Position numbers and translations under genes: made by a program. Below, in pieces: positions 3,159 through 39,361 of a stretch of 39,429 nt of DNA (within the stretch, counting starts at the first letter, position 1; every line of letters starts with the position of its first letter). The notes under the pieces were generated by a model. The model did no database searches and had not been told where the DNA came from. It saw only the letters and a program-made list of their open reading frames with translations. Source of the stretch: a virus; IMG/VR virus record IMGVR_UViG_3300036832_000381, positions 1-39,429 of that record; one strand, given 5' to 3'.

Positions 3159-3392
3159 TCACAGCGCCGCCGCTGGCACGTCGAGATGATTGGCGAGCGC
3201 CCACAGCACTTGCAGACGCAGCGCAGGCGGCGGCAGTTTGCCGAGCCTGATCGCTGCACCCATCACACGATCGGCGACGCCTTGATCCAACTGCTCGGGC
3301 CAGTGATGCACGAGCGCAGGCGTTACGCCGAGCGCGAGCGCGAGATCGGTCTTTTTGCCGCCGAAAATTGCGAGTGCTTCGCTCTTCGTCAT
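3159..3392 (-). CDS. cro: P22 Cro-like transcriptional regulator
   Basis: This is a 77-residue helix-turn-helix DNA-binding protein. The N-terminal ALAIFGGKKTDLALALGV, followed by TPALVHHW, is the typical P22-Cro pattern: helix 2 with the Ala-x3-Gly turn at about 17-22 and the recognition helix to about 30. Length matches the family. It is the first minus-strand gene after the divergent control region and would repress its own promoter and the opposing plus-strand one. The predicted -10 box ends only 9 nt before the ATG, so the mRNA may be leaderless, like lambda cI made from PRM. No partner CI repressor was recognised, so this gene may carry more of the switch than usual. Confidence 0.82.
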   Translation of the reverse strand: MTKSEALAIFGGKKTDLALALGVTPALVHHWPEQLDQGVADRVMGAAIRLGKLPPPALRLQVLWALANHLDVPAAAL

Positions 3393-3401
3393 GACGCACA
3401 G

Positions 3402-3429
3402 ATTAAAAGTGATATCAAAATCGTGTCAA
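3402..3429 (-). promoter_or_regulatory. Minus-strand early promoter for cro
   Basis: Read on the minus strand, TTGACA (3429-3424) is separated by 16 nt from TTTAAT (3407-3402): a perfect -35 and a 5/6 -10. Transcription would begin around 3395, leaving only two to four nucleotides before the cro ATG at 3392. This is the strongest sigma70-type match in the control region. Confidence 0.7.
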
Positions 3430-3434
3430 TACTC

Positions 3435-3472
3435 TGACCATATATTCATATCTCAGGGTCATATGTGACCCT
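3435..3472. promoter_or_regulatory. Operator cluster with GGGTCA/TGACCC half-sites
   Basis: The palindrome AGGGTCA-TATG-TGACCCT spans 3455-3472. A third half-site, TGACC, lies at 3435-3439. The cluster is between the minus-strand cro promoter and the start of the plus-strand recombination operon. It is the natural binding site for the Cro-like protein or an unidentified repressor. The half-sites and their symmetry are seen; the protein that binds them is inferred. Confidence 0.6.
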
Positions 3473-3518
3473 GTGCGCATTATTTTTGAATTATTTTGTG
3501 ATTTAACGCAGCGCAATC

Positions 3519-3547
3519 TTGACGTGATTCACGCCGAAGCGCATAAC
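3519..3547 (+). promoter_or_regulatory. Possible plus-strand early promoter
   Basis: TTGACG (3519-3524), a 17-nt spacer and CATAAC (3542-3547) give a 5/6 -35 and 4/6 -10 match. The predicted start, near 3554, is about 37 nt before the exonuclease ATG. The operator palindrome lies roughly 50 bp upstream of the -35, so this promoter may be activated rather than blocked from there. Other AT-rich hexamers nearby could serve instead. Confidence 0.4.
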
Positions 3548-3590
3548 GATGAAAACGTCTTGAACAACTAAATATGCAACGCGCCGCATA

Positions 3591-4475
3591 ATGCTCACCG
3601 AGAAACAAATCGCAGTGCGTCAAACCGGCGTTGGTTCCAGCGAAGTCGCCGCAGCGCTCGGTCTATCGAAGTGGACCTCGCGTCTCGAACTGTATCGCCG
3701 CAAGGTCGGCGAACTTCCACCGCAAGACGAGACCATGGCAATGCGCTTCGGGCATGCGGTCGAGCCGTTCATCCTTTCCGAGTATGAGCGCGAACGCGAC
3801 GTGACGTTGGTCCGCTCGCCGGACACGATGCGTAAAGGCATTCTGCTCGCGCATCTCGACGGATGGTTGCCCAATCAACTCGTCGTCAACGCCAAGACTG
3901 CGCGCTCGCGTCTCGGCTGGGGTGAACCGGGCAGCGCGGAAATGCCAGTCGACTATCTGCTACAGGAAACCGCCGAGATGATCATCGCCGACGTGCGCAT
4001 CGCGCATGTGCCGGTGCTGTTCTTCGGATCAGCGATCGAGGTCTATGAACTCAAACTCGACAACGAGCTGGCGCAGATGATCATGGCGGGCGTCGACGAT
4101 TTTTGGTCGCGCGTCCTGCAACACGATCCGCCGCCACCTGGAACACTTGCCGAGATCAACGAGCGCTGGCCGATTTCGATCGCGCGTCGCGTCGAGTTAC
4201 CACCGAATGTTGCGCGACAGTGGCACGAACTGATCGCGACCAAGACTCACTTGGCGGCGCTTGAAAGCGACGCCGAGCGAATGGAAGCGCAAATAAAGTT
4301 AGCGATGGGCGATGCCGAAGTAGCGACCATCGACGGCATGATCGCCGCGACGTGGAAAACCCCGAAGCCCGCGCGCGTGTTGAATCAAACGCTACTCAGA
4401 GCCGAGCACCCGGAGTTGGCGGCACAGTACGAGATCGAACGGCACGCCGGAAGGCGCTTTCTACTGAAGGGGTAA
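3591..4475 (+). CDS. YqaJ-family phage exonuclease (lambda Exo-type)
   Basis: This is a 294-residue predicted 5'-3' DNA exonuclease that would supply single strands to the RecT protein encoded 27 nt downstream. Family landmarks are the GSSEVAAALG segment (15-24), GHAVEPF (54-60, helix with the conserved Glu), the catalytic Asp in HLDGW (D90) and the Lys in VNAKTA (K102). The acidic residue expected two positions before that Lys is Asn100 here, a notable deviation from E/QxK. C-terminal residues ~205-250 look coiled-coil. The start ATG lacks a clear Shine-Dalgarno site and overlaps the stop of a 5-codon frame (TAATG at 3589-3593). Confidence 0.85.
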   Translation: MLTEKQIAVRQTGVGSSEVAAALGLSKWTSRLELYRRKVGELPPQDETMAMRFGHAVEPFILSEYERERDVTLVRSPDTMRKGILLAHLDGWLPNQLVVNAKTARSRLGWGEPGSAEMPVDYLLQETAEMIIADVRIAHVPVLFFGSAIEVYELKLDNELAQMIMAGVDDFWSRVLQHDPPPPGTLAEINERWPISIARRVELPPNVARQWHELIATKTHLAALESDAERMEAQIKLAMGDAEVATIDGMIAATWKTPKPARVLNQTLLRAEHPELAAQYEIERHAGRRFLLKG

Positions 4476-4502
4476 AACCGAAACAAGAAAAAGGAATTTG
4501 CA

Positions 4503-5453
4503 ATGAGCGACGCCACAGCTGCACCATCAACAGAAGTTACGCGCGCACCCTTCGTGCCGTCATTCGTGGAACGAGATCAGTTCGAACTCGAGGTCCGCAA
4601 AGCGCGACTATTTTCCGAAGCGACACTTGTACCGCAGCAATATCAGCAGAGCATTCCCAACTGTCTCATCGCGTTGAACATGGCGCGACGCATGAACGCG
4701 GACCCGCTTATGGTGATGCAAAATCTGCACATCGTGAAAGGCAAGCCGGGTTGGTCCGGTCAATTCCTGATTGCGACGTTCAACCAGTGCGGTCGATTCA
4801 GCGCCATGCGTTTCGAGTGGCGCGGCGAAGAAGGCAACAAGGAATGGGGATGTCGTGCGCATGCAATCGAGCTTGCAAGCGGCGAGCCGATCATCGGGGC
4901 GTGGGTCACGTGGAAGATAGTCGAGGCCGAAGGCTGGAACAAGCGCGACGGCAGCAAATGGTTGACCATGCCCGAGCAAATGTTCCTGTATCGCTCTGGC
5001 GCTTTTTTGGTTCGCGCCTATGCACCCGAAATCGCGATGGGTCTGCCGACGGCGGAAGAATTGGTCGACACAATCGACGTAGGCGGCGGCAATGCTAACG
5101 GCGAGCAACGTTCACCGATCGACGCAGTGAAAAGCGCGCTACGCTCCACCACGATAGCGCCGCCGCCGTCGACAGCGGACGATTCCACAGAAGCAGCACC
5201 GGCAGCGGCACCACCGCCGCATCGCGGGCGCGGTCGCCCGCGCAAAACACCGCTCGCAGAGACGGCGACGCAAGCGCACGTTGGTGCGTCAGCGCTTTTT
5301 ACATACGCGGAAATTGCGGACGCAATTAACAAAGCGACAACGATGACCGCACTCGACGAGGCGCTTGATCTCGCTTCCCACTTCCCCGATCCCGCACAAC
5401 GAATTGAGTTAATCGACCTCGCCAAAGCACAACGACTTGCGCTCGATGTCTGA
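4503..5453 (+). CDS. recT: RecT-family single-strand annealing protein
   Basis: This is a 316-residue RecT-type recombinase that anneals the 3' tails produced by the adjacent exonuclease. The family core covers about 30-195. It contains the NCLIALNMARRMNADPLMVMQN helix region (53-74), LHIVKGKPGWSGQFLIA (75-91), the WRGEE...GCRAHA strand pair and the closing PEQMFLYRSGAFLVRAYAPEIAMG helix (157-180). After the core comes a Pro/Ala-rich disordered stretch and an AT-hook, RGRGRPRK (241-248), which is unusual for RecT and suggests minor-groove DNA anchoring. A final helical segment follows. An AAGGAA site precedes the ATG. The pair forms a two-component recombination module. Confidence 0.9.
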   Translation: MSDATAAPSTEVTRAPFVPSFVERDQFELEVRKARLFSEATLVPQQYQQSIPNCLIALNMARRMNADPLMVMQNLHIVKGKPGWSGQFLIATFNQCGRFSAMRFEWRGEEGNKEWGCRAHAIELASGEPIIGAWVTWKIVEAEGWNKRDGSKWLTMPEQMFLYRSGAFLVRAYAPEIAMGLPTAEELVDTIDVGGGNANGEQRSPIDAVKSALRSTTIAPPPSTADDSTEAAPAAAPPPHRGRGRPRKTPLAETATQAHVGASALFTYAEIADAINKATTMTALDEALDLASHFPDPAQRIELIDLAKAQRLALDV

Positions 5454-30298: not shown

Positions 30299-31107
30299 TC
30301 CAGCACCACCGCCCACTCAGCCGAGCCGCCGCCGATGTCCGGTGGCGAATAGTTGGTCGATCGCCGACACAGAAACACGCGACCGCTGTGCCGAACAACA
30401 TCGTTGAGGCGATACGATTCATCGGCGGAAAAATTGCCGCGCCAGTTCCAACCGATGCCGTTGGCGCCATCGCGCGGACGCTTAAGCGCCATGCGCCACA
30501 CGACAGCAGCAGCGGGCGTGCCGGGTGTCAGTCCCTTCGATGGCGCGATGGCTGCCCATAGCGTGCCGTCATGCGTAACCCAATCGCCGACCGTGTACTC
30601 CGCATCGTCGACGAAGACTTCGCGATAGCGGAATCCATCACCAGGTGGGCCGCGCTGCTCGGCGAGTTTCGCCAAGGCTGGTTCAACGCGCTGATCGAGT
30701 AACGCTCCCAAGCGACTATCGATGTCGGCGAAACCGCGCTCGATGCGCGCGCTGAGTTCATCGCTAGTCGCGGCGATGACGCCGTCCATCACTTCGCGTT
30801 GCACCATGCCACCGATCGTCGCCTCGATCGTGGTGAGCATGCTGCCCAACGCGGCCATCGATACCCGCAGCGTTTCCATTTTTGCATCGAACGCGGCATT
30901 GAGTTCGTGAATCGCGGCGTTCAAAGCGTCGAGATCGCCATTCAATTTCGATTGAACGTGATCGAGCATTGAGCGCGTGACTGCGGCTTCGGTCACCGCT
31001 GCGACGCTGGTTCTCAACTGCACGATGCTGCCGAGTATCGGCGTGTTAGCGCGACGAATGGCGTCGACAGTTTCGCGCGCAAAAGCGCTTGCGAGTTCGG
31101 GAGTCAT
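30295..31107 (-). CDS. Coiled-coil protein with two CBM5/12-like modules (270 aa)
   Basis: Residues ~1-150 are an Ala-rich helical coiled-coil region (FARETVDAIRRANTPILGSIVQLRTSVAAVTEAAVTRSMLDH...). After RGPPGDGFR come two small modules, each with an acidic-aromatic start, a DxV core and a closing Trp. The first is YTVGDWVTHDGTLWAAIAPSKG...VWRMAL, the second YRLNDVVRHSGRVFLCRRSTNY...EWAVVLE. They resemble chitinase-type carbohydrate-binding modules (CBM5/12). Position between portal (ATGA overlap at 31104) and connector is surprising for a carbohydrate binder. It may be a head decoration or neck fibre that reaches out of the virion. Confidence 0.65.
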   Translation of the reverse strand: MTPELASAFARETVDAIRRANTPILGSIVQLRTSVAAVTEAAVTRSMLDHVQSKLNGDLDALNAAIHELNAAFDAKMETLRVSMAALGSMLTTIEATIGGMVQREVMDGVIAATSDELSARIERGFADIDSRLGALLDQRVEPALAKLAEQRGPPGDGFRYREVFVDDAEYTVGDWVTHDGTLWAAIAPSKGLTPGTPAAAVVWRMALKRPRDGANGIGWNWRGNFSADESYRLNDVVRHSGRVFLCRRSTNYSPPDIGGGSAEWAVVLE

Positions 31108-32492
31108 GCCGCCTCCGGTATCGCCTCATGCAAATGGTCGGAAAAACGCACGTACGAAGCGACAAGATCGTCTTCGCTTGTCGGCGGTGGCCCCGGTGGT
31201 GGTTCGGGCGGCTTGAGCGCCGGGGGCGCGACGTTGCTGCCATCCAGCGTCGACAGTGGCGCGTACTGGATTTGCATCATTGGCTCGTCGCCGCCTTCGA
31301 CGCTTGCCAATCCTTCCTTCGCGCGTGCTTCGTTGATGCACAGGAAACCGGACGTGATCCCTTCGCGATAGGCCGCGAAGCGCACGTCAAGATCGGTGCG
31401 CAGAATGGCGTCGACATCGAATTCCAGTTCCACACCTTTCGCCAATCCGAACGCCGCCGCGAAGCGCGCTTCCAACGCCTCAAGATGGTATTGCAGGCAG
31501 CCGGAATAGTAGGTGCGCATCAGCGTTTCGCTGTTGCGATACGTCACCTTGTCGAGTTCGCCGAGCAGAAACCCCGGTACGCGATAGACGCGCGCAACAT
31601 CGCTGATTCCCCATTTCAGCAATTCGAGCAACTGCGAATCCACCGCCGAGATCGTGATCGCTTCCCACTTCAGGCCGTCGCCAAGCATCGCGGTTTTGCC
31701 TGTCTGTCCCGGCCCGTAATTTTTGTCCCACTCGGCGCGCAGTCGATCGGCCAATTCCTTCGACACTTTGCCGGGCGCGGTGAGCAGACCGGACGGTCGC
31801 CCCATGTTCGCGAAAAATTCTGCGGCCGATTGCCCGGCGCGTAGCCCGACCGTCGCCGCGAGTGCAGCTGCGTAGAGCGGCGTCACACCGACTAACGGAT
31901 GATCCACGCACATGACCCGGTGATGAATGATCTCGCTCTGCGGAATCACATAACGTCCGTCCTCACCCGGCGGTGAAAGATCGGACACCAGCGCGATCGA
32001 TTGTGAATGTGAGACCTGATAGAAAACATCGCCAGTGACCGCGACCAGCGGGCGCACAAAATACGGGTTGAGTACATCCATGCGGGACACCATGCCGCGC
32101 CCGTCGCGCGTGATCAGCGCATAAGCATTGCCAGCGAGCAAGAGGCTCACCATGAAATAGGCGAAAAAATCGATATGCGTTTGATACGGGTTCGGGTATT
32201 GCAGCATCGCCTGTATCGGATGATCGGAGGCCAGCGTTCGCCCGCCTTTCGGCAGCGTGCGCCAGACATTAATCGGCAGCTTCGATACGTCGGACGAAAT
32301 GATGTTTACGCAGCTGTAGACCGCCGAGAACGACAACAGCGGCGGCGCGGGCATAGCAATCACATTCTGTTGCCATGCGCCTGGAAACGATTCACGAATG
32401 ACGCCGCCGATGGTGCCACTGACGCGCGGTCCAGTCGGCGCTGGCAGCATGCCCACCGCAGCGCGCGGCTTGATCTTCGGCTTTGCGTTCAT
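31104..32492 (-). CDS. Portal protein (HK97 family)
   Basis: This 462-residue protein forms the dodecameric ring at the unique head vertex. Typical portal features are SFSAVYSCVNIISSDVSKLPINVWRT (clip-side helix start), FMVSLLLAGNAYALITRDGRG, PTTPLYAAALAATVGLRAGQSAAEFFANMGRPSGLL (helices near the wing), TISAVDSQLLELLKWGISDVARVYRVPGFLLGEL and EARFAAAFGLAKG. The C-terminus is Pro-rich (EPPPGPPPTSEDD) and presumably flexible. The ATG overlaps the stop of the small preceding gene (ATGA). Downstream are the CBM-like protein and the connectors, upstream the capsid gene. The order is the HK97 pattern reversed onto the minus strand. Confidence 0.93.
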   Translation of the reverse strand: MNAKPKIKPRAAVGMLPAPTGPRVSGTIGGVIRESFPGAWQQNVIAMPAPPLLSFSAVYSCVNIISSDVSKLPINVWRTLPKGGRTLASDHPIQAMLQYPNPYQTHIDFFAYFMVSLLLAGNAYALITRDGRGMVSRMDVLNPYFVRPLVAVTGDVFYQVSHSQSIALVSDLSPPGEDGRYVIPQSEIIHHRVMCVDHPLVGVTPLYAAALAATVGLRAGQSAAEFFANMGRPSGLLTAPGKVSKELADRLRAEWDKNYGPGQTGKTAMLGDGLKWEAITISAVDSQLLELLKWGISDVARVYRVPGFLLGELDKVTYRNSETLMRTYYSGCLQYHLEALEARFAAAFGLAKGVELEFDVDAILRTDLDVRFAAYREGITSGFLCINEARAKEGLASVEGGDEPMMQIQYAPLSTLDGSNVAPPALKPPEPPPGPPPTSEDDLVASYVRFSDHLHEAIPEAA

Positions 32493-32728
32493 TCGAATGC
32501 CCGGCCGCGCATGCCGCTGCGTCGCTTGTGACGCGCCTTCCCGATCGGGGGCGCCGACGGCGGCGGTTGTTCGAGTGCAGAAAGCTTTTCGACGCGCCCC
32601 TCGCGGACAAGAGCATCACCGAACGCGTCGCCAATGGTAAAAATCGAACCCTTTGCGTACATCACGCGCCCGCCGACGATCACGTCGGCGAGCGCGCGAT
32701 AGCGCAACTGACGTTGCAACTTGACCAC
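32489..32728 (-). CDS. Small protein between capsid and portal (79 aa)
   Basis: The GTG start follows the capsid stop by 2 nt and its stop overlaps the portal ATG. The N-terminal half (QLRYRALADVIVGGRVMYAKGSIFTIGDAFGDALVREGRVEKL) looks like a compact beta-rich module. Its C-terminal half is Pro/Arg/Lys-rich and presumably disordered. Small genes here are often head decoration or assembly factors. No family is identified. Confidence 0.65.
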   Translation of the reverse strand: MVKLQRQLRYRALADVIVGGRVMYAKGSIFTIGDAFGDALVREGRVEKLSALEQPPPSAPPIGKARHKRRSGMRGRAFE

Positions 32729-32730
32729 GG

Positions 32731-34122
32731 CTAGTACGGAGTGCCGGTCAGCAGTTGCACCGCTTGCGGATAACGCCGCATCCAGTAGATGTAGCGCTCT
32801 GCCTTAATGCCGATCAGGTTTTGCTGCCAGAGTGAAGTCAGCGGAGCCGGTGGCGTGGCTGGCGTGGTGTCGAGTTGAATCGACGCCTCGCGCGACACGT
32901 CGAGCGATACGCCGCCATCGTCGGCAAGAAAAATCTGCCGTTGATCCAACAGCACGATCATGCCGAGAAACCCCGGACCAACACCGAGCGGCACAGAGTT
33001 AGAGGTTATGATCGGAAAGCCTAGAAGCGTGTTGGCCGTAGACACCGACGGAAACGCCGGTTGATCCATCGCTCCGCGCAGCAACCCGAGATAGATTTGC
33101 GAGCGCGCGTTCATGATCCACGCGGGCGCGTCCATCGGAATTCCCGCCCCCGACATATTCGCCAGCATGGTGCCGAGGTCGGCGGTCACCTGCGCCACCG
33201 TCGAGCCGGTCGACGCAATCGGCGTGACGCCGTTGGTGATCGACCCCGGATTGACATTGGCGACCGGCGCATTGGCCGGGTCGATGAATTGCTTGTCGAG
33301 AAATTGCCCGATCGCCAACACCATGTCATCGGTAACGACCATTTCCGCCGACGGATCGCTGAAGCGCGCAAGCTCTTCGGTCATGGCGACGATCACGGCA
33401 ACTTTGGTGAATGGCATCGTCACCGCGTCCAAGGTCAAGTCGCCGACAGGCTTGCTCATTCCCTGACCAACCCAACCCGCCGTTGACACACCGCTGAGTT
33501 GGCGAATCATGCGCGTGTTGAACGGCACGCGACGCAGGTCCGGCAGTTTCCCGAGAATGGTTTTCGGGCGCAGCAGTTCGATGAACTCGCTCGCCATCGT
33601 CTGCGCATAGACGAGCACGCCCGCCCATGCCGGGTTCGTCGTTGTTGCGGCTGACGACGCTGCGCGCGTCTGCGCGACGAAGGACTCGGCACCACCACAT
33701 TGCCCGATAGCGCGAAACAGTTCCGCCAGTTGCGGCGTCGTGTCGCGCCAATAATTTCGCGCGATCTGCTCCGCTTGCATCATGTTGCCCTTCGACGCGA
33801 TCAGCGCCATGACGTAGCGCGCGAACGCTGTGCCTTTGGGCAACTGCTTGTCTTTCATCTGAATGACCGGCACCGCCTCGACGCTCTGCACGCTGGAAAC
33901 GGCCGGGCGCGCCGAAGCTGCGACCAACTTTTCCTGCGATTCGAGTCGTTCGATGTGAGCGTTAACCGTTTCGGTCTCGGTCTTGAACTTGTCGAAAGAC
34001 TTCGTCTCTTCGTCGGTGAAGGTGCGATCTTCCGCGGCTGCTACGTCGACGGTTTCTTGCATTCCATGGAGCGCTGCATCGCGACGTGCGCGCATTGCTG
34101 CCAGTTGTTCAGCGATTGTCAT
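32731..34122 (-). CDS. Major capsid protein (HK97 fold)
   Basis: This 463-residue capsid subunit has a long N-terminal helical delta-type segment (~1-110, AEQLAAMRARRDAALHGMQETVDVAAAEDRTFTDEE) that the prohead protease would remove. The HK97 core runs from about residue 130 to the C-terminus. It contains WRDTTPQLAELFRAIGQCGG, AGVLVYAQTMASEFIELLRPKTILGKLPDLRRVPFNTRMIRQL, the TMPFTKVAVIVAMTEELARFSDPSAEM E-loop region, DKQFIDPANAPVANVNPGSITNGVTPI, and a PITSNSVPLG/AERYIYW end. This order is characteristic. A protease gene lies just upstream, typical of HK97 maturation. Confidence 0.93.
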   Translation of the reverse strand: MTIAEQLAAMRARRDAALHGMQETVDVAAAEDRTFTDEETKSFDKFKTETETVNAHIERLESQEKLVAASARPAVSSVQSVEAVPVIQMKDKQLPKGTAFARYVMALIASKGNMMQAEQIARNYWRDTTPQLAELFRAIGQCGGAESFVAQTRAASSAATTTNPAWAGVLVYAQTMASEFIELLRPKTILGKLPDLRRVPFNTRMIRQLSGVSTAGWVGQGMSKPVGDLTLDAVTMPFTKVAVIVAMTEELARFSDPSAEMVVTDDMVLAIGQFLDKQFIDPANAPVANVNPGSITNGVTPIASTGSTVAQVTADLGTMLANMSGAGIPMDAPAWIMNARSQIYLGLLRGAMDQPAFPSVSTANTLLGFPIITSNSVPLGVGPGFLGMIVLLDQRQIFLADDGGVSLDVSREASIQLDTTPATPPAPLTSLWQQNLIGIKAERYIYWMRRYPQAVQLLTGTPY

Positions 34123-34149
34123 GATTCGTCCTTGGTTGGAGTGGGTGAA

Positions 34150-34746
34150 TTACCGTTTGTGGTCGGCGACGCCCAACCGCAGAATCGTGATTTGCGCGCG
34201 CGCAACATCGAGTTGCGATCCCGACGCGGATCGAAACAGAGCGCGGCGAATCTCCGGGGAAAACGAACGTGCAAGCGTCAACGCATTCGGGTTTGCTGGA
34301 ATGCTGACGATGGAATTTTCAAGCAACTGTTGACCGACCCATTCATAGCCGCCGGTCCACTCGTTGGTTTTCGGGTCTTTGATCTCGTTCGGTTCCTTTG
34401 TTGGCTGGAATCCGACGGAGACGGCCTTCAGAATTTTCTGATCGACCAGTGCGCGCACGGCATCGACCATCGGAGTCGTGCCCGGCGCACCGAGCGTGAT
34501 GTCAGCGATTAGTTTCTTGCCGGTGACGCGGACCTCGGCGGTGCCGACTGGGTCGGTCGCTGAATGACCGAATAGAACGATGGGATTCTTGCGATACTCG
34601 TCCAGCTCCCATCCGTCGACGCGAATGATGTCGCCGTAGCGATCGACTGATTCGTCGCTGGCGACCACGGACAGTTTGCCCGCGCCTGTGATCTCGGCGG
34701 CGCGAACCTCACGATACTGAACACCGACTGGAACGGCGCGACGCAT
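34150..34746 (-). CDS. Prohead protease (S78 family)
   Basis: This 198-residue maturation protease has catalytic His61 in VLFGHSA and Ser110 in AVSVGF, plus the usual VASDESVDRYGDIIRVDGW start and NSIVSIPANPNAL end. It cleaves the capsid delta domain. The ATG lacks a Shine-Dalgarno site and follows a hairpin of the tandem leader element. The frame is also open upstream to a TGA at 34864-34866, but no ATG, GTG or TTG occurs in between. Its start may therefore depend on leader structure or on slippage from a 20-codon frame. The gene sits between TerL and capsid, the standard position. Confidence 0.9.
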   Translation of the reverse strand: MRRAVPVGVQYREVRAAEITGAGKLSVVASDESVDRYGDIIRVDGWELDEYRKNPIVLFGHSATDPVGTAEVRVTGKKLIADITLGAPGTTPMVDAVRALVDQKILKAVSVGFQPTKEPNEIKDPKTNEWTGGYEWVGQQLLENSIVSIPANPNALTLARSFSPEIRRALFRSASGSQLDVARAQITILRLGVADHKR

Positions 34747-34750
34747 GGCG

Positions 34751-34769
34751 CGGTCTCCCGAAGAGACCG
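34751..34769 (-). other. Hairpin just before the protease start
   Basis: CGGTCTC (34751-34757, plus strand) pairs with GAGACCG (34763-34769), a perfect 7-bp stem with a 5-nt loop. It ends 4 nt before the ATG at 34746, so it could block or pause translation. It is the 3' hairpin of leader copy B. Confidence 0.6.
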
Positions 34770-34820
34770 GACCCCATTCCGTCGCTCTTGAAACCGAACT
34801 AGTCGCTGTGGGGGTTACTT
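34767..34820 (-). other. Leader element copy B (tandem repeat, upstream of protease)
   Basis: On the minus strand this element begins AAGTAACCCCCACAGCG and ends GAGCGACGGAATGGGGTCCGG (last 21 nt split by a variable centre). ACCCC and GGGGT can pair. The copy is 54 nt; copy A is 50 nt, with the difference in the centre only. Copy B is followed by a 7-bp hairpin and then the protease ATG. Confidence 0.6.
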
Positions 34821-34877
34821 GCTCGGGCGCGGAAACGCTTTGCGTTCCTGCGGGGGCGGGCGATCACGACTAGACAT
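34815..34877 (-). CDS. Putative 20-codon leader ORF between the two elements
   Basis: An ATG at 34877 begins a 20-residue frame rich in Arg, Pro and Lys (MSSRDRPPPQERKAFPRPSK) that ends with TAA inside copy B. It has no evident ribosome binding site. It could be a leader peptide coupling translation to the structure upstream of the protease, or a chance frame. A -1 shift near its end would enter the protease frame. Confidence 0.25.
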   Translation of the reverse strand: MSSRDRPPPQERKAFPRPSK

Positions 34878-34891
34878 GGAGGCAAACCCAA

Positions 34892-34920
34892 CTCGTTGTG
34901 GAAATTCTCTCCACCACGAG
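34892..34920 (-). other. Hairpin following leader copy A
   Basis: CTCGT/ACGAG and GTGGA/TCCAC arms pair with one internal mismatch around a 7-nt loop. It occupies the same place relative to copy A as the CGGTCTC hairpin does relative to copy B, though the sequences differ. Preserved structure with changed sequence favours an RNA explanation. Confidence 0.5.
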
Positions 34921-34970
34921 CCGGACCCCATTCCGTCGCTCGATCAGGCTAGGCGCTGTGGGGGTTACTT
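34921..34970 (-). other. Leader element copy A (tandem repeat)
   Basis: Copy A lies 150 nt upstream of copy B and shares 16-17 identical nt at the start (AAGTAACCCCCACAGCG) and 20 at the end. The middle differs by 4 nt in length, which breaks any common reading frame, so the conservation is at nucleic-acid level. A perfect 7-bp hairpin (34971-34987) precedes it, right after the TerL stop. Confidence 0.6.
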
Positions 34971-34987
34971 CTCGCCGTGCCGGCGAG
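34971..34987 (-). other. Hairpin after the large terminase stop
   Basis: CTCGCCG and CGGCGAG form a perfect 7-bp stem with a 3-nt loop, 9 nt beyond the terminase stop codon and immediately before leader copy A. It lacks a T-tract, so it is more likely part of the leader structure than a terminator. Confidence 0.5.
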
Positions 34988-34996
34988 TGTCGCGCG

Positions 34997-37039
34997 CTAG
35001 GTATGGACGGCAACATTACTCGCAGTGTTTTCGTCCGTCAAGAACAACATCGACGGCGCCCGCTCGGTGCAGTCGAGAAACATTCGCCGCCCAAGCGCGG
35101 TGAGTGTCGCCACTAGCCCATCGATTTTCACCAACGGATCGTCTTTATTTTTGCGCGGGAAAATGTTGCCCTTCATGTCTTCCTGCACCATGACGCATCC
35201 AACATTCCACGCCAACACCGGATTGGCGTTGTGATGCAAGCGACCGGACAGCGCGAGCGCTTCGATTTCCTTCATCGGCGGCGAAAAGTTTCCGACTGTC
35301 GGTCGATACTCGATCACGGGAATTCCAACGTTGTCCAGGTTGCTTGCCATCATTCGCGCCTGCCACGGATCGTAGGCCACGTCGACGATCCTGAAGTCGT
35401 TGTTGTCTTCGATCACCGTGGCTTCGATCAAGCTTAGGTCGTTGGCCTCGCCGGGCACGATGTGAATCCAGCCATCCTGAACCCATCCCGAATACGCGTC
35501 GTTGCGCTCGACGCTGGCCTCGGGAAGAAAAAAATCCACGAATAAATAATAATGCCGCACGCCTTCGATGTCGCGCCAAAACAAACGCGTTTTCGCGGCG
35601 AGGTCGACCTTGGTCGCGAGGTCCAACCCGACGATGCACTCGTCGCCCTTGAAATCGTCAATGCTCAAACTCGGATCGCCGCACGCATCCCACACCTGCA
35701 TATCCATCCATAGCACAGCGGTGGAGGTCCAGATGTTCAAGTGCTTTTGCTTGAAAGCGTTTTGCCGAGAGGCTGATTGTTGCGCTTGATGGCATAGGTT
35801 GGCGATTGCATCAGGCATCACGCTGACATCCCAATTCGGGTTCGCCTTGATCCACGTTTTTTCGTCGCGCCAGTCGTCGTCTTTGTCGACCGTGTAGATC
35901 ACCGCAAAAAATTGTTCGTCCTCAAACTTGCGCTCGAGGATTCGCTGCGCGTACTGCCATTGCTCGTAACCGATAGACGACTGATTGCTGGCGGCGGTGG
36001 TTATGCCAATCATCATCGGCTGCGTGCGCTTGCCGGTCGCGGTCTGCAACACGTCGAACACTTCCCCGTTTTTGTGCTGCGCGAGTTCATCGAGCACTGC
36101 AAAGTGGACGTTCAGGCCGTCAAGGGATGTTGCGTCGCGCGACAGCGGGCGAAACGTCCCGGCGTTGCTCTCTTGCGCGATGGCGTGCGCATTGACGGTG
36201 ACGCCATAACGCGATCGAAACTCGGGCGCGCGTTCGGCCATGCGTTGCGCAGTGTCGAATACCAGACGCGCCTGTTGTCGGGTCACTGCCGCCGCGTACA
36301 CTTCGGACCCGCCCTCGCCGTCTAGCGCCAGCATGTAAAGCGCAAGCGGCGCGGCCAGCGTGGTCTTCCCGTTGCCGCGTGGCACGTAGCAGAGAACGTA
36401 TCGAAAGCGTCGCGCCCCGGTCTGCGCGTTGACCCACCCGAATGCGGACACGACCATGAAGCGCTGCCACGGCATGAGCACCAGTCGACGGCGCGCGCGC
36501 GGTCCCTTGATTTCGCGGAACAGCTGCAAAACGCGACAGACGCGTTCGGCTTTCGCGAAGTCAAAAGTATATTTCCAATCCGACTTGCCAATGCGTGCCC
36601 AATCACGCTCGTGCCGCTCGCATGCGAGTTGCACCAGCCGCCCGGTCGGGATGCGTTTGGCGAGCACGTCGCGCACGTACTGAAACGCCGACGCGCAATT
36701 CGGGTACCCGCGCTCGGCCAGCTCGATCAGGTCAACGTCAAGTCGTTGCGCCGGTCGCTTCGTCGATTCATCAACGGCATCCGAAGCCGCTAGTTCGTCC
36801 TCGGTCGGCTTTTGCCATGCTCGATGCGATGTCTGCCGTTTGCGCTCTGCATCAAGTAGCGCATCAACACGCTCTGGATCACTGAGCAGCGATTTGACTT
36901 CCGTCGCGCTCGGTTTCTTGATCGCTGCCTGTCTTACTTTGCTTCGAGCGCGATCTCTCTCTCGCTGCGCCGATTTTGCATCGGCAGCGGTCGCGTATTT
37001 TCTCGGTCGCCCACGTCCGCGCTTTTCAATCAATGTCAT
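34997..37039 (-). CDS. terL: Terminase large subunit with AT-hook N-terminal extension (680 aa)
   Basis: This packaging motor pumps DNA into the prohead and cuts it. I start at the ATG at 37039. Walker A is RGNGKT (221-226), Walker B HFAVLDE (312-318), with the coupling helix following. The nuclease domain begins at GLDLATKVDLAA, with a later VDVAYDPWQARMMASNLDNVGIPV segment. The N-terminal ~105 residues are an extension not typical of Terminase_1 proteins. It opens with an AT-hook (RGRGRPRK, residues 7-14) followed by a basic helix (YATAADAKSAQRERDRARSK). The start lies 14 nt inside the small terminase end. Length exceeds the usual ~560-580 by about this extension. Confidence 0.92.
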   Translation of the reverse strand: MTLIEKRGRGRPRKYATAADAKSAQRERDRARSKVRQAAIKKPSATEVKSLLSDPERVDALLDAERKRQTSHRAWQKPTEDELAASDAVDESTKRPAQRLDVDLIELAERGYPNCASAFQYVRDVLAKRIPTGRLVQLACERHERDWARIGKSDWKYTFDFAKAERVCRVLQLFREIKGPRARRRLVLMPWQRFMVVSAFGWVNAQTGARRFRYVLCYVPRGNGKTTLAAPLALYMLALDGEGGSEVYAAAVTRQQARLVFDTAQRMAERAPEFRSRYGVTVNAHAIAQESNAGTFRPLSRDATSLDGLNVHFAVLDELAQHKNGEVFDVLQTATGKRTQPMMIGITTAASNQSSIGYEQWQYAQRILERKFEDEQFFAVIYTVDKDDDWRDEKTWIKANPNWDVSVMPDAIANLCHQAQQSASRQNAFKQKHLNIWTSTAVLWMDMQVWDACGDPSLSIDDFKGDECIVGLDLATKVDLAAKTRLFWRDIEGVRHYYLFVDFFLPEASVERNDAYSGWVQDGWIHIVPGEANDLSLIEATVIEDNNDFRIVDVAYDPWQARMMASNLDNVGIPVIEYRPTVGNFSPPMKEIEALALSGRLHHNANPVLAWNVGCVMVQEDMKGNIFPRKNKDDPLVKIDGLVATLTALGRRMFLDCTERAPSMLFLTDENTASNVAVHT

Positions 37040-37500: not shown

Positions 37501-38676
37501 TCACGCCGCCGCTTTCATTTCGCCATCGATCAACGCTTGCGCAAGTCGTCGCTCGGTCATGATCGGGCCGACGTATTCGAAGATCGCGCACGGGCGCGCT
37601 TCTACGCGCGCCCCGTTCCCTTGTAGAAAGAACCCTTCTTTCCCCTTCCCTGTTTTGCGTATCGATGATGTCCTTCCGAGTGGGACGATTCGACCGGGCG
37701 CTTTGCGCATCGACCAATTCGGCGAATGATCCGCTGATCGAATGAATGCAGGATGTGCCGGGTATAAGTGCAGTCGTTGACCGATCGCGCGATACGCCGA
37801 CCCAAGCGTGTCGAACAACACAAACGCAAGCCCCATGCCTTGAAAGTCCGGCAACGTCACGCCACGCGTAAGTCCGAACACGTCTCGCGCAGTCGGGTGC
37901 GGTCGCTTCAATACGCCCGCGAATGACGCTGGCGTGCCATTGACGAACAACACAAACGAGCGCGCGGCGCGGTGCATGTCGCTGGTCAGATAGTGAAAGC
38001 GAGCGAATAATTGCCACGCCGCATAATCGACCCGCGCGATTTCGACGTGAATGTCAGGTCGCCGATGAAGTGACCTCCGCGTGAACGTCATCGTCGCCGG
38101 TTCAAATGTCCAATCCGGTTGTAGCCAATCGACGATGTCATAGTGACATGACGCGCACACGATTTGACGCTCACGTTTGCGCACCCACTTTTGCACCGCA
38201 TGGCTCGCGATCTGCGCAACCTGGCGGTCAACAACCGACGTGAACTCGTCGACGATGATCGGCTGATTCGGCGGTGTCTCGATCATGCGTCGTGCGAGAT
38301 CGGCGCGGAATCGTTCTCCTGTCGACAGCACCTTGTGCGGTCGTAGCCACGCCGGGATGGTGTTGAAACCGACCGCTTGACACGTCGCGCAAATTTCCTC
38401 GAGCGTCAGCCCTTCGGCGAAATCGTCGACAACAGCGGCACCGTACCAATCGATGCGCAGTGCGTCGCCAAACATCGCATGGAGCAGCGTCGACTTTCCC
38501 GATCCCGATGGACCGAGAATCAGCCCGACGTTCCACGCTGCTGCATCGTATGGAACATCGCCATGCCATTCCAATCGCGATCGTTCCGACGGCGGGACAT
38601 CGAACGCGCTTTCAAGCTGCCGCGCTCTTATCGATCGCGAAATTTCGGTTTCAACTACGTGGTCAACAGTCGGCAT
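37501..38676 (-). CDS. ABC-type ATPase fused to a GNAT acyltransferase (391 aa)
   Basis: The N-terminal ~200 residues are an ABC-type ATPase: Walker A GPSGSGKST (55-63), signature LSTGE (117-121, LSGGQ variant), Walker B PIIVDE (139-144), D-loop SVVD (147-150) and switch His178. The C-terminal domain (~212-330) is GNAT-like, with the acyl-CoA pyrophosphate loop QGMGLA (279-284). This resembles COG2401, an ABC-type ATPase fused to a predicted acetyltransferase. Association with ParB-like and terminase genes occurs in phages. A DNA or protein modification role is possible, such as Mom-type base modification (Mom also has a GNAT fold); this is inference. It overlaps the ParB-like gene by 22 nt. 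No membrane domain is present, so it is not a transporter. Confidence 0.8.
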   Translation of the reverse strand: MPTVDHVVETEISRSIRARQLESAFDVPPSERSRLEWHGDVPYDAAAWNVGLILGPSGSGKSTLLHAMFGDALRIDWYGAAVVDDFAEGLTLEEICATCQAVGFNTIPAWLRPHKVLSTGERFRADLARRMIETPPNQPIIVDEFTSVVDRQVAQIASHAVQKWVRKRERQIVCASCHYDIVDWLQPDWTFEPATMTFTRRSLHRRPDIHVEIARVDYAAWQLFARFHYLTSDMHRAARSFVLFVNGTPASFAGVLKRPHPTARDVFGLTRGVTLPDFQGMGLAFVLFDTLGSAYRAIGQRLHLYPAHPAFIRSADHSPNWSMRKAPGRIVPLGRTSSIRKTGKGKEGFFLQGNGARVEARPCAIFEYVGPIMTERRLAQALIDGEMKAAA

Positions 38677-39188
38677 TGCCGTCCCTCGTTCTCAAGCTGC
38701 GACAACAGTGCCGCTTGATCGCGTTCATCGCGACACTGCACGATGATCGCATAGGTGAACGCATCTCCTAATTGTGGCGCAGAATCGGTGCCTACCAGCG
38801 CGAGCAACGATTGCAATTCTTCGTCGTCGAAGCCGGTTAGCTTCACATCGTAATCCGATTTATCCAAGTCGATCAGCTCGTCACGCAATAGCGCCAAATC
38901 CCAACCTGCATTGAGCGGAATCTTGTTATCGGCGATACGATAGGCGCGTTTTTGATCTTCGGATAGATGCGTCAGTCGAATACACGGCGCGTCCTCGATC
39001 GCGAGTTCATCGGCGGCCAGGATTCGGCCATGCCCGGCGATCACCGAATCGGCCTCGTCGATCAGGATCGGGTTGGTGAATCCGAACTCGCGAATCGACG
39101 CCGCGATCTGCGCGACTTGTGCTGGCGTGTGCGTGCGCGCGTTCTTCGCGTACGGCAACAGACGCTGCAATGGGACGTGCTCGATCAT
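38655..39188 (-). CDS. ParB-like nuclease-domain protein (177 aa)
   Basis: Residues ~1-100 form a ParB/Srx-type N-terminal domain. IEHVPLQRLLPYAKNARTHTPAQVAQIAASIREFGFTNPILID is followed by the GHGRILAA box (near 52-59) and LSEDQKRAYRIADNK, a pattern common in phage ParB-like proteins. The HTH DNA-binding part of plasmid ParB is absent. These proteins may be nucleases or CTP-binding DNA clamps. The gene precedes the ABC-GNAT fusion (overlapping by 22 nt) and starts where the 57-residue frame ends (TGATG). ATG 39188 is preferred to GTG 39191. A common operon with packaging genes is likely. Confidence 0.82.
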   Translation of the reverse strand: MIEHVPLQRLLPYAKNARTHTPAQVAQIAASIREFGFTNPILIDEADSVIAGHGRILAADELAIEDAPCIRLTHLSEDQKRAYRIADNKIPLNAGWDLALLRDELIDLDKSDYDVKLTGFDDEELQSLLALVGTDSAPQLGDAFTYAIIVQCRDERDQAALLSQLENEGRQCRLLTT

Positions 39189-39361
39189 CACTGCACGTCG
39201 CCCCCATCACGCCCTGACGCTCCGGGCACCCTGCGTCGACTCTTCGCCGACGTGCTAGGAATACCCCCCAAACGTCGCGGGAACGCGCTGGCGGGGTTGG
39301 GGACAGGGAAAGACCCCTTCCGCTTGCCCCGAGGTCGCTGACGCCCCCCTGCGCCCTTCAT
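39188..39361 (-). CDS. Putative 57-residue Arg/Gly-rich protein
   Basis: On the minus strand the frame opens at ATG 39361-39359 and ends at a TGA that overlaps the ParB-like ATG (TGATG). It has GAGGGGG about 6 nt upstream. The composition is Gly/Arg/Pro-rich (KGAGGRQRPRGKRKG...), with no recognised domain. If coupled to the ParB gene, it would be the first gene after the HNH genes across the circular junction. It remains tentative. Confidence 0.4.
   Translation of the reverse strand: MKGAGGRQRPRGKRKGSFPVPNPASAFPRRLGGIPSTSAKSRRRVPGASGRDGGDVQ

Follow-up and report, generated by a model that had tools for sequence, protein, structure and literature searches.

What is the function of the duplicated element that lies between the large terminase gene terL (37069-34997) and the prohead protease gene (34746-34150, ATG at 34746) on the minus strand of IMG/VR record IMGVR_UViG_3300036832_000381, a 39.4-kb virus from an uncultured phage? 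The first-pass annotation, made on the whole stretch of 39,429 nt that we call the window, had offered two answers, a new cis-acting RNA controlling head gene expression or a DNA site for terminase. The protease gene, which follows the element, matches PHROG 80 and 617, and the genes for the major capsid protein (MCP) and the portal lie downstream of it in the same region. This head gene order, terL - protease - MCP - portal (31104-34746 for the head genes), is unusual; in TerL relatives lacking the hairpin H1 described below, the portal appears directly after terL as read by eye. Just upstream of terS the window encodes a protein with a ParB-like nuclease domain (38655-39191) and an ATPase-like protein of 391 aa (phrog_11143, 37501-38676). 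Among cultured phages and plasmids no convincing DNA similarity to the window was found; the TerL proteins of cultured phages are at most 43% identical, and there is no close relative among them. Bacterial genomes gave four TerL relatives of at most 48% identity and no trustworthy match to H1.

Both end blocks of the element are repeated exactly within the window. The sequence AAGTAACCCCCACAGCG occurs twice on the minus strand, at 34804-34820 and 34954-34970, where 0.05 occurrences are expected by chance with up to 3 mismatches allowed, and CGACGGAATGGGGTCCGG occurs twice, at 34767-34784 and 34921-34938, with one further place at 3 mismatches. As the copies of one block are 150 nt apart and those of the other 154 nt, the insides of the elements differ by 4 nt, in agreement with the earlier description of two elements 150 nt apart with common ends and a 4-nt internal difference. 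Folding confirmed that each copy is followed by a hairpin of different sequence in the same place. The third hairpin described before copy A is present at 34987-34971 (minus strand), within a decayed ORF, but it is not unusual for its composition (z = -1.24); it is not conserved in relatives and is probably not a part of the element.

The nearest relatives by TerL (72-99% identity) have one copy each between terL and protease, and only a near-identical 5.6-kb contig (L006) shares the two copies of the window. The order in these relatives is a TTGAC-N17-TAGTGT promoter at the terL end, 8 nt, the ATG of an ORF of 20-26 aa, its stop codon, CCCCCACAGCG, a hairpin, a Shine-Dalgarno sequence (SD) and the protease ATG, from which it follows that the tiny ORF plus element of the window is a tandem duplication where the first ORF has lost its start and been shortened. 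Judged from the sequence, the duplicated unit is the tiny ORF with H1 and a second hairpin, H2, and the first ORF is dead: it runs from an ATA at 35004 to 34965 on the minus strand, ends in AAG TAA and begins 8 nt after the -10 box, as does the intact leaderless ATG ORF of the relatives. Copy A now stands ahead of the surviving tiny ORF and copy B ahead of the protease. The tandem arrangement is thus a local duplication of a unit that is single in the nearest relatives, while in other relatives, too, two or three genes are each preceded by an H1. The statement that protein coding cannot explain the repeat has to be narrowed, as part of the 150-nt unit is explained by a 20-aa ORF (34877-34815). 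The shared AAGTAA is in copy B the place where an ORF terminates (AAG TAA), and in copy A what is left of such an ORF end.

Distant phages, whose TerL is about 51-66% identical, keep only the second half of the element, H1, and not the AACCCCCACAG half. Comparison of about 30 uncultured relatives describes H1 as a compact bulged hairpin consisting of a covarying outer stem, C, an unpaired (G/A)A, CGG, a variable loop, CCG, G, often an unpaired U, and the closing strand of the outer stem. The loop is of 4-8 nt or an inserted hairpin, the unpaired nucleotide after the G is optional, and the distance from core to start codon is 17-43 nt. The asymmetric core C-RA-CGG / CCG-G is invariant, although many instances, including most of those from three-copy loci, were chosen by a core regular expression and a stem of at least 3 bp, which inflates this invariance. 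On the minus strand of the window, copy A (34917-34942) reads CGAG-C-GA-CGG-AAUGGGGU-CCG-G-CUCG with the outer stem paired, and is matched by the covariance model at 34915-34944 (E = 0.026). Copy B (34761-34789) reads AAGAG-C-GA-CGG-AAUGGGGU-CCG-G-U-CUCUU and is matched at 34760-34790 with E = 5.6e-5, its sequence being one of the 19 in the model. The outer stems of the two copies differ by compensating changes. H1-like hairpins with the loop replaced by a longer hairpin insert were seen in L169 (3867-3911) and L086 (1714), and L169 may lack a tiny ORF in front.

The first-pass annotation had named a covariance search of related phage genomes as a check, and comparison of the relatives showed a covarying stem whose covariation score was reached by none of 500 shuffles. 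Positions 1-4 of the outer stem pair in 38-39 of the 39 distinct arm pairs and positions 5-6 in about half or less; 97-98% of cells pair in alignments of 19 and 40 distinct sequences, the model alignment leaning to structure, while slid registers are only 27-64% paired. Changes on both sides are found in five of the nine modelled pairs, namely all five outer pairs, the other four being the invariant core, and the arm changes compensate with G-U pairs included. For 17 instances with unusual arms the mean was 4.06 bp with the own partner and 1.55 when partners were swapped. Instances found by their position beside terL have the same pairing pattern as those selected by the regular expression. 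No shuffle equalled the covariation and stems given a foreign partner do not hold, so we take H1 to be RNA; on these sequence comparisons both the conserved RNA element and its gene specificity are well supported.

No Rfam 15 family matched in the window, the best sub-threshold hit (E = 4.7) being to an unrelated miRNA model, and no such element was found in the open-access papers searched. A CsrA site, with ACGGA at the core, was set aside since most relatives have ACGGU. No terminator-like U run follows H1 or H2 in the instances read, which speaks against an intrinsic terminator, and a REP-like mobile repeat is unlikely as the copies sit only ahead of the same three genes.

The covariance model was run over 16 whole phage records, and clearly significant matches were obtained only in these leaders, including both window copies. 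Scanning 2.9 million viral contigs with the exact pattern gave 28 stretches, of which 25 are followed by terL, by a tiny Arg/Pro-rich ORF or by the protease of this phage group; the other three (L308, L311 and L315) look like chance. H1 is always on the sense strand just ahead of starts, with up to three copies within the late operon. The arrangement of the window, with copies before tiny ORF and protease, is also found in L017, L018, L077, L248 and L237, and in a third group the copies number as many as three, placed ahead of terL (GTGGATCAG.., MDQIDIPG), the tiny ORF and the protease. The terL copy has no clear nearby promoter and no tiny ORF before it. In L087 the ORF after H1 (3360-5318) is of 652 aa, a length that would suffice for a fusion of protease and capsid protein.

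H2 is placed between H1 and the start codon; its loop or 3' arm contains the SD. In copy A it is a long alternative hairpin (34886-34925, minus strand) which shares the 3' strand of H1 and has GGAGAG in the loop (folding, z = -3.1). In copy B it is CGGUCUCU-UCG-GGAGACCG (34751-34769, minus strand), likewise shares the 3' strand of H1, and is not clearly stronger than shuffles (z = -0.9). The protease had been described as lacking a ribosome site, which is wrong: the SD GGGAG is at 34759-34755, 8 nt before the ATG and inside H2, and relatives have AGGAG or similar. H2 follows H1 at the terL and protease starts, while the leaders of the tiny ORF are mostly without it; the mean z against shuffles is -3.0 for terL, -2.0 for the protease and -0.7 for the tiny ORF (Mann-Whitney p = 0.005 for the weaker H2 before the tiny ORF, not corrected for relatedness). 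The CCGG(U)CC strand of H1 is in many lineages an arm of H2 as well, where its partner is codons 2-5 or the SD region (GGUCC with GGACC or GGAUC, CCGG with CCGG, CGGCC with GGCCG, CGGCUC with GAGCCG). In 42 of 48 cases the H1 3' strand pairs with downstream sequence more than the shuffles do on average, for example in GGUCC..AUGGACC and CGGCC..AUGGCCG, with a small mean z of 0.56, and G+C-rich sequence pairs easily. As this effect is small, competition between H1 and H2 is something we infer, and the signal is absent or reversed in leaders of L017, L018 and L077.

The intact tiny ORF of the window (34815-34877, minus strand) encodes 20 aa, MSSRDRPPPQERKAFPRPSK. The products of this family are of 20-36 aa and have in common the pattern RxRP....R and a Pro-rich tail. 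Among relatives, 285 of the single-base codon differences are synonymous and 120 are not (70% synonymous, 27% expected), the alignment of pairs as proteins favouring synonymous counts somewhat. Because of this excess we regard the tiny ORF as very probably a translated gene, and the substitution pattern points to purifying selection. PHROGs gave no significant match, neither for the tiny ORF nor for basic proteins of about 55 aa found elsewhere. These are proteins of 52-58 aa encoded just before the protease in L157, L159 and L163, which lack H1 (L163 having the order terL - small basic ORF - protease, and also, by protease, L157 and L159), and they are perhaps distant counterparts of the tiny ORF. 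A basic protein can hence exist there without H1, and the longer ORF at the same place suggests that the tiny protein may have another job.

A predicted promoter is located at the 3' end of terL (35013-35041, minus strand), with the -35 box TTGACG (35041-35036), a 17-nt spacer and the -10 box TAATGT (35018-35013). In the leaderless relatives checked, the pattern TTGAC-N16-18 followed by a TA-rich -10 stands 7-13 nt ahead of the ATG of the tiny ORF, and in most other relatives it precedes the first H1, hence we predict a conserved promoter and, in the former, a leaderless tiny ORF. Each locus of the three-copy group has a single parS-like palindrome (TGTTTCACGTGAAACA or close), immediately 5' of the -35 box in the promoter for the tiny ORF and head genes (L234 5977, L235 2653, L236 4074, L247 5773, L248 1313, L320 3859 and others); none was found at that place in the window.

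We lean, if only somewhat, towards H1 as a cis-acting mRNA leader element that controls initiation of translation on the genes for packaging and head maturation in one clade of tailed phages, all uncultured. The earlier proposal of a new cis-acting RNA controlling head gene expression fits the covarying stem, the fixed position, seen only ahead of the start codons of terL, the tiny ORF and the protease, and the lack of an Rfam match. As H1 in relatives is found only ahead of these three genes, it is likely to be a switch in virus head production that has not been described before. The best reading is a new family of leader elements that act on translation of head and packaging genes and are probably recognised by a trans-acting factor. 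For the direction of control and for the ligand or binder we infer the following. A trans-acting factor recognising H1 (or cotranscriptional folding) would hold the leader open, H1 competing with the downstream H2, which would bury the SD and often the start codon as well. While H1 is formed or held, H2 could not use the H1 3' strand and translation would be on; otherwise H2 would form as the closed state and translation would be off. Since tiny-ORF leaders are mostly without H2, or the tiny ORF is leaderless, its product should be made unregulated, and this basic product would be a candidate H1-binding regulator. Further, we speculate on a counterpart of Tat/TAR, where the Arg/Pro-rich protein of 20-36 aa, made from a leaderless or unoccluded leader, would bind the bulged H1 before terL, the protease and its own gene and jointly switch on translation of motor and head protease; such an extension is rather unlikely.

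Other explanations must be weighed against a translational switch. H1 might be an mRNA processing or stability element, an RNase III/E site or a 5'-protecting hairpin that sets the message level of terL, tiny ORF and protease separately. In favour are its conservation, its bulge and its high G+C content, and in tiny-ORF leaders it starts near the predicted transcription start (13-23 nt from -10 to core), like known 5' stabilising hairpins. However, in the leaderless subgroup, which includes the ancestral state of the window, H1 lies about 100 nt inside and near the protease SD, and stability elements rarely need an invariant core sequence, so that we find this unlikely. In phage HK022 small RNA hairpins make the polymerase read through terminators, and H1 could be such a put- or nut-like RNA serving a long late operon, its first copy coming just after the conserved promoter and ahead of the head genes. 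Yet as many as three copies occur, all of them tied to start codons, no clear promoter is near the terL copy, and a single copy after a leaderless ORF fits poorly with a promoter-proximal requirement; we hold this explanation for improbable.

Control by a leader peptide seems equally improbable. Translation of the tiny ORF, with its polyproline RPPP, would here open a long-range helix P1 and a CCCC/GGGG pseudoknot by the stop codon and so set the folding of H1 and H2 at the protease. In the window subgroup both pairings can be drawn, tentatively: P1 from CUAGUCGU (34866-34873) and GCGACUAG (34799-34806), and the pseudoknot from CCCCCA (34809-34814), in a CCCCCAC immediately after the stop codon, with the H1 loop UGGGG (34776-34772), all on the minus strand. 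The loop complementarity is retained where UGGGG becomes GUGGG. But neither pairing is significant in every sequence; in some relatives P1 is weak, and outside the subgroup it was not seen. No tiny ORF precedes the terL copies, and the synonymous excess indicates that the ORF is kept as a protein. Although the statistics are weak, P1 and the loop pairing may in the window subgroup also couple the element to translation of the tiny ORF. A DNA site, be it a terminase cos/pac site or a transcription factor operator, would suit the nearby terminase genes, but is very improbable and, as far as sequence can tell, already largely refuted by covariation. The arms covary as an RNA stem with compensating changes and G-U pairs, on the sense strand only and just before start codons, in up to three copies inside the late operon, which leaves the suggested terminase site unsupported.

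Among known systems, H1 resembles the phage translational operators (the coat protein operator of ssRNA phages; T4 gp32, RegA and gp43) as a small RNA at the ribosome binding site of phage structural or replication genes, with a sequence-specific core and unpaired purines. As in hairpins of protein operators it adjoins the ribosome binding site (17-43 nt from core to start) and has the invariant C-RA-CGG/CCG-G, partly by instance selection. It differs in belonging to dsDNA tailed phages, in its place before terL, tiny ORF and protease, in its core and in the second, SD-containing hairpin, and no homology is shown. With translational riboswitches and anti-SD leader switches it shares a conserved, covarying 5' hairpin that may compete with an SD-sequestering one, the latter clear at terL and many protease leaders and the competition signal only modestly above shuffles, whereas its core is about 25 nt, Rfam gives no match, and the genes are phage structural ones and not metabolic. 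The put RNAs of HK022 and lambda nut-boxB with the N peptide are also short hairpins read in the phage's own transcript, and the nearby small Arg-rich protein recalls N/boxB. The H1 core is not recognisably boxB or put, however, and while first copies are promoter-proximal the terL copies apparently are not; being tied to the start codons of single genes, H1 has a position that points to translation. The manA and wcaG RNA motifs of cyanophages are structured 5' UTR elements upstream of metabolic and photosynthesis genes (PMC2864571). They are like H1 in being structured 5' UTR elements found by comparison in phage or metagenome DNA, and differ in their downstream genes and are unrelated. H1 would act like a translational operator or leader switch, yet is a member of no family tested.

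The usual explanation for the control of late genes in tailed phages is transcriptional. If one repeated, covarying leader hairpin serves terL, the gene of a tiny basic protein and the protease gene, these phages would co-regulate packaging and head maturation at the RNA level. H1 offers a compact RNA family that is open to test, since its compensating mutations can be predicted, and the tiny conserved protein is a candidate binder.
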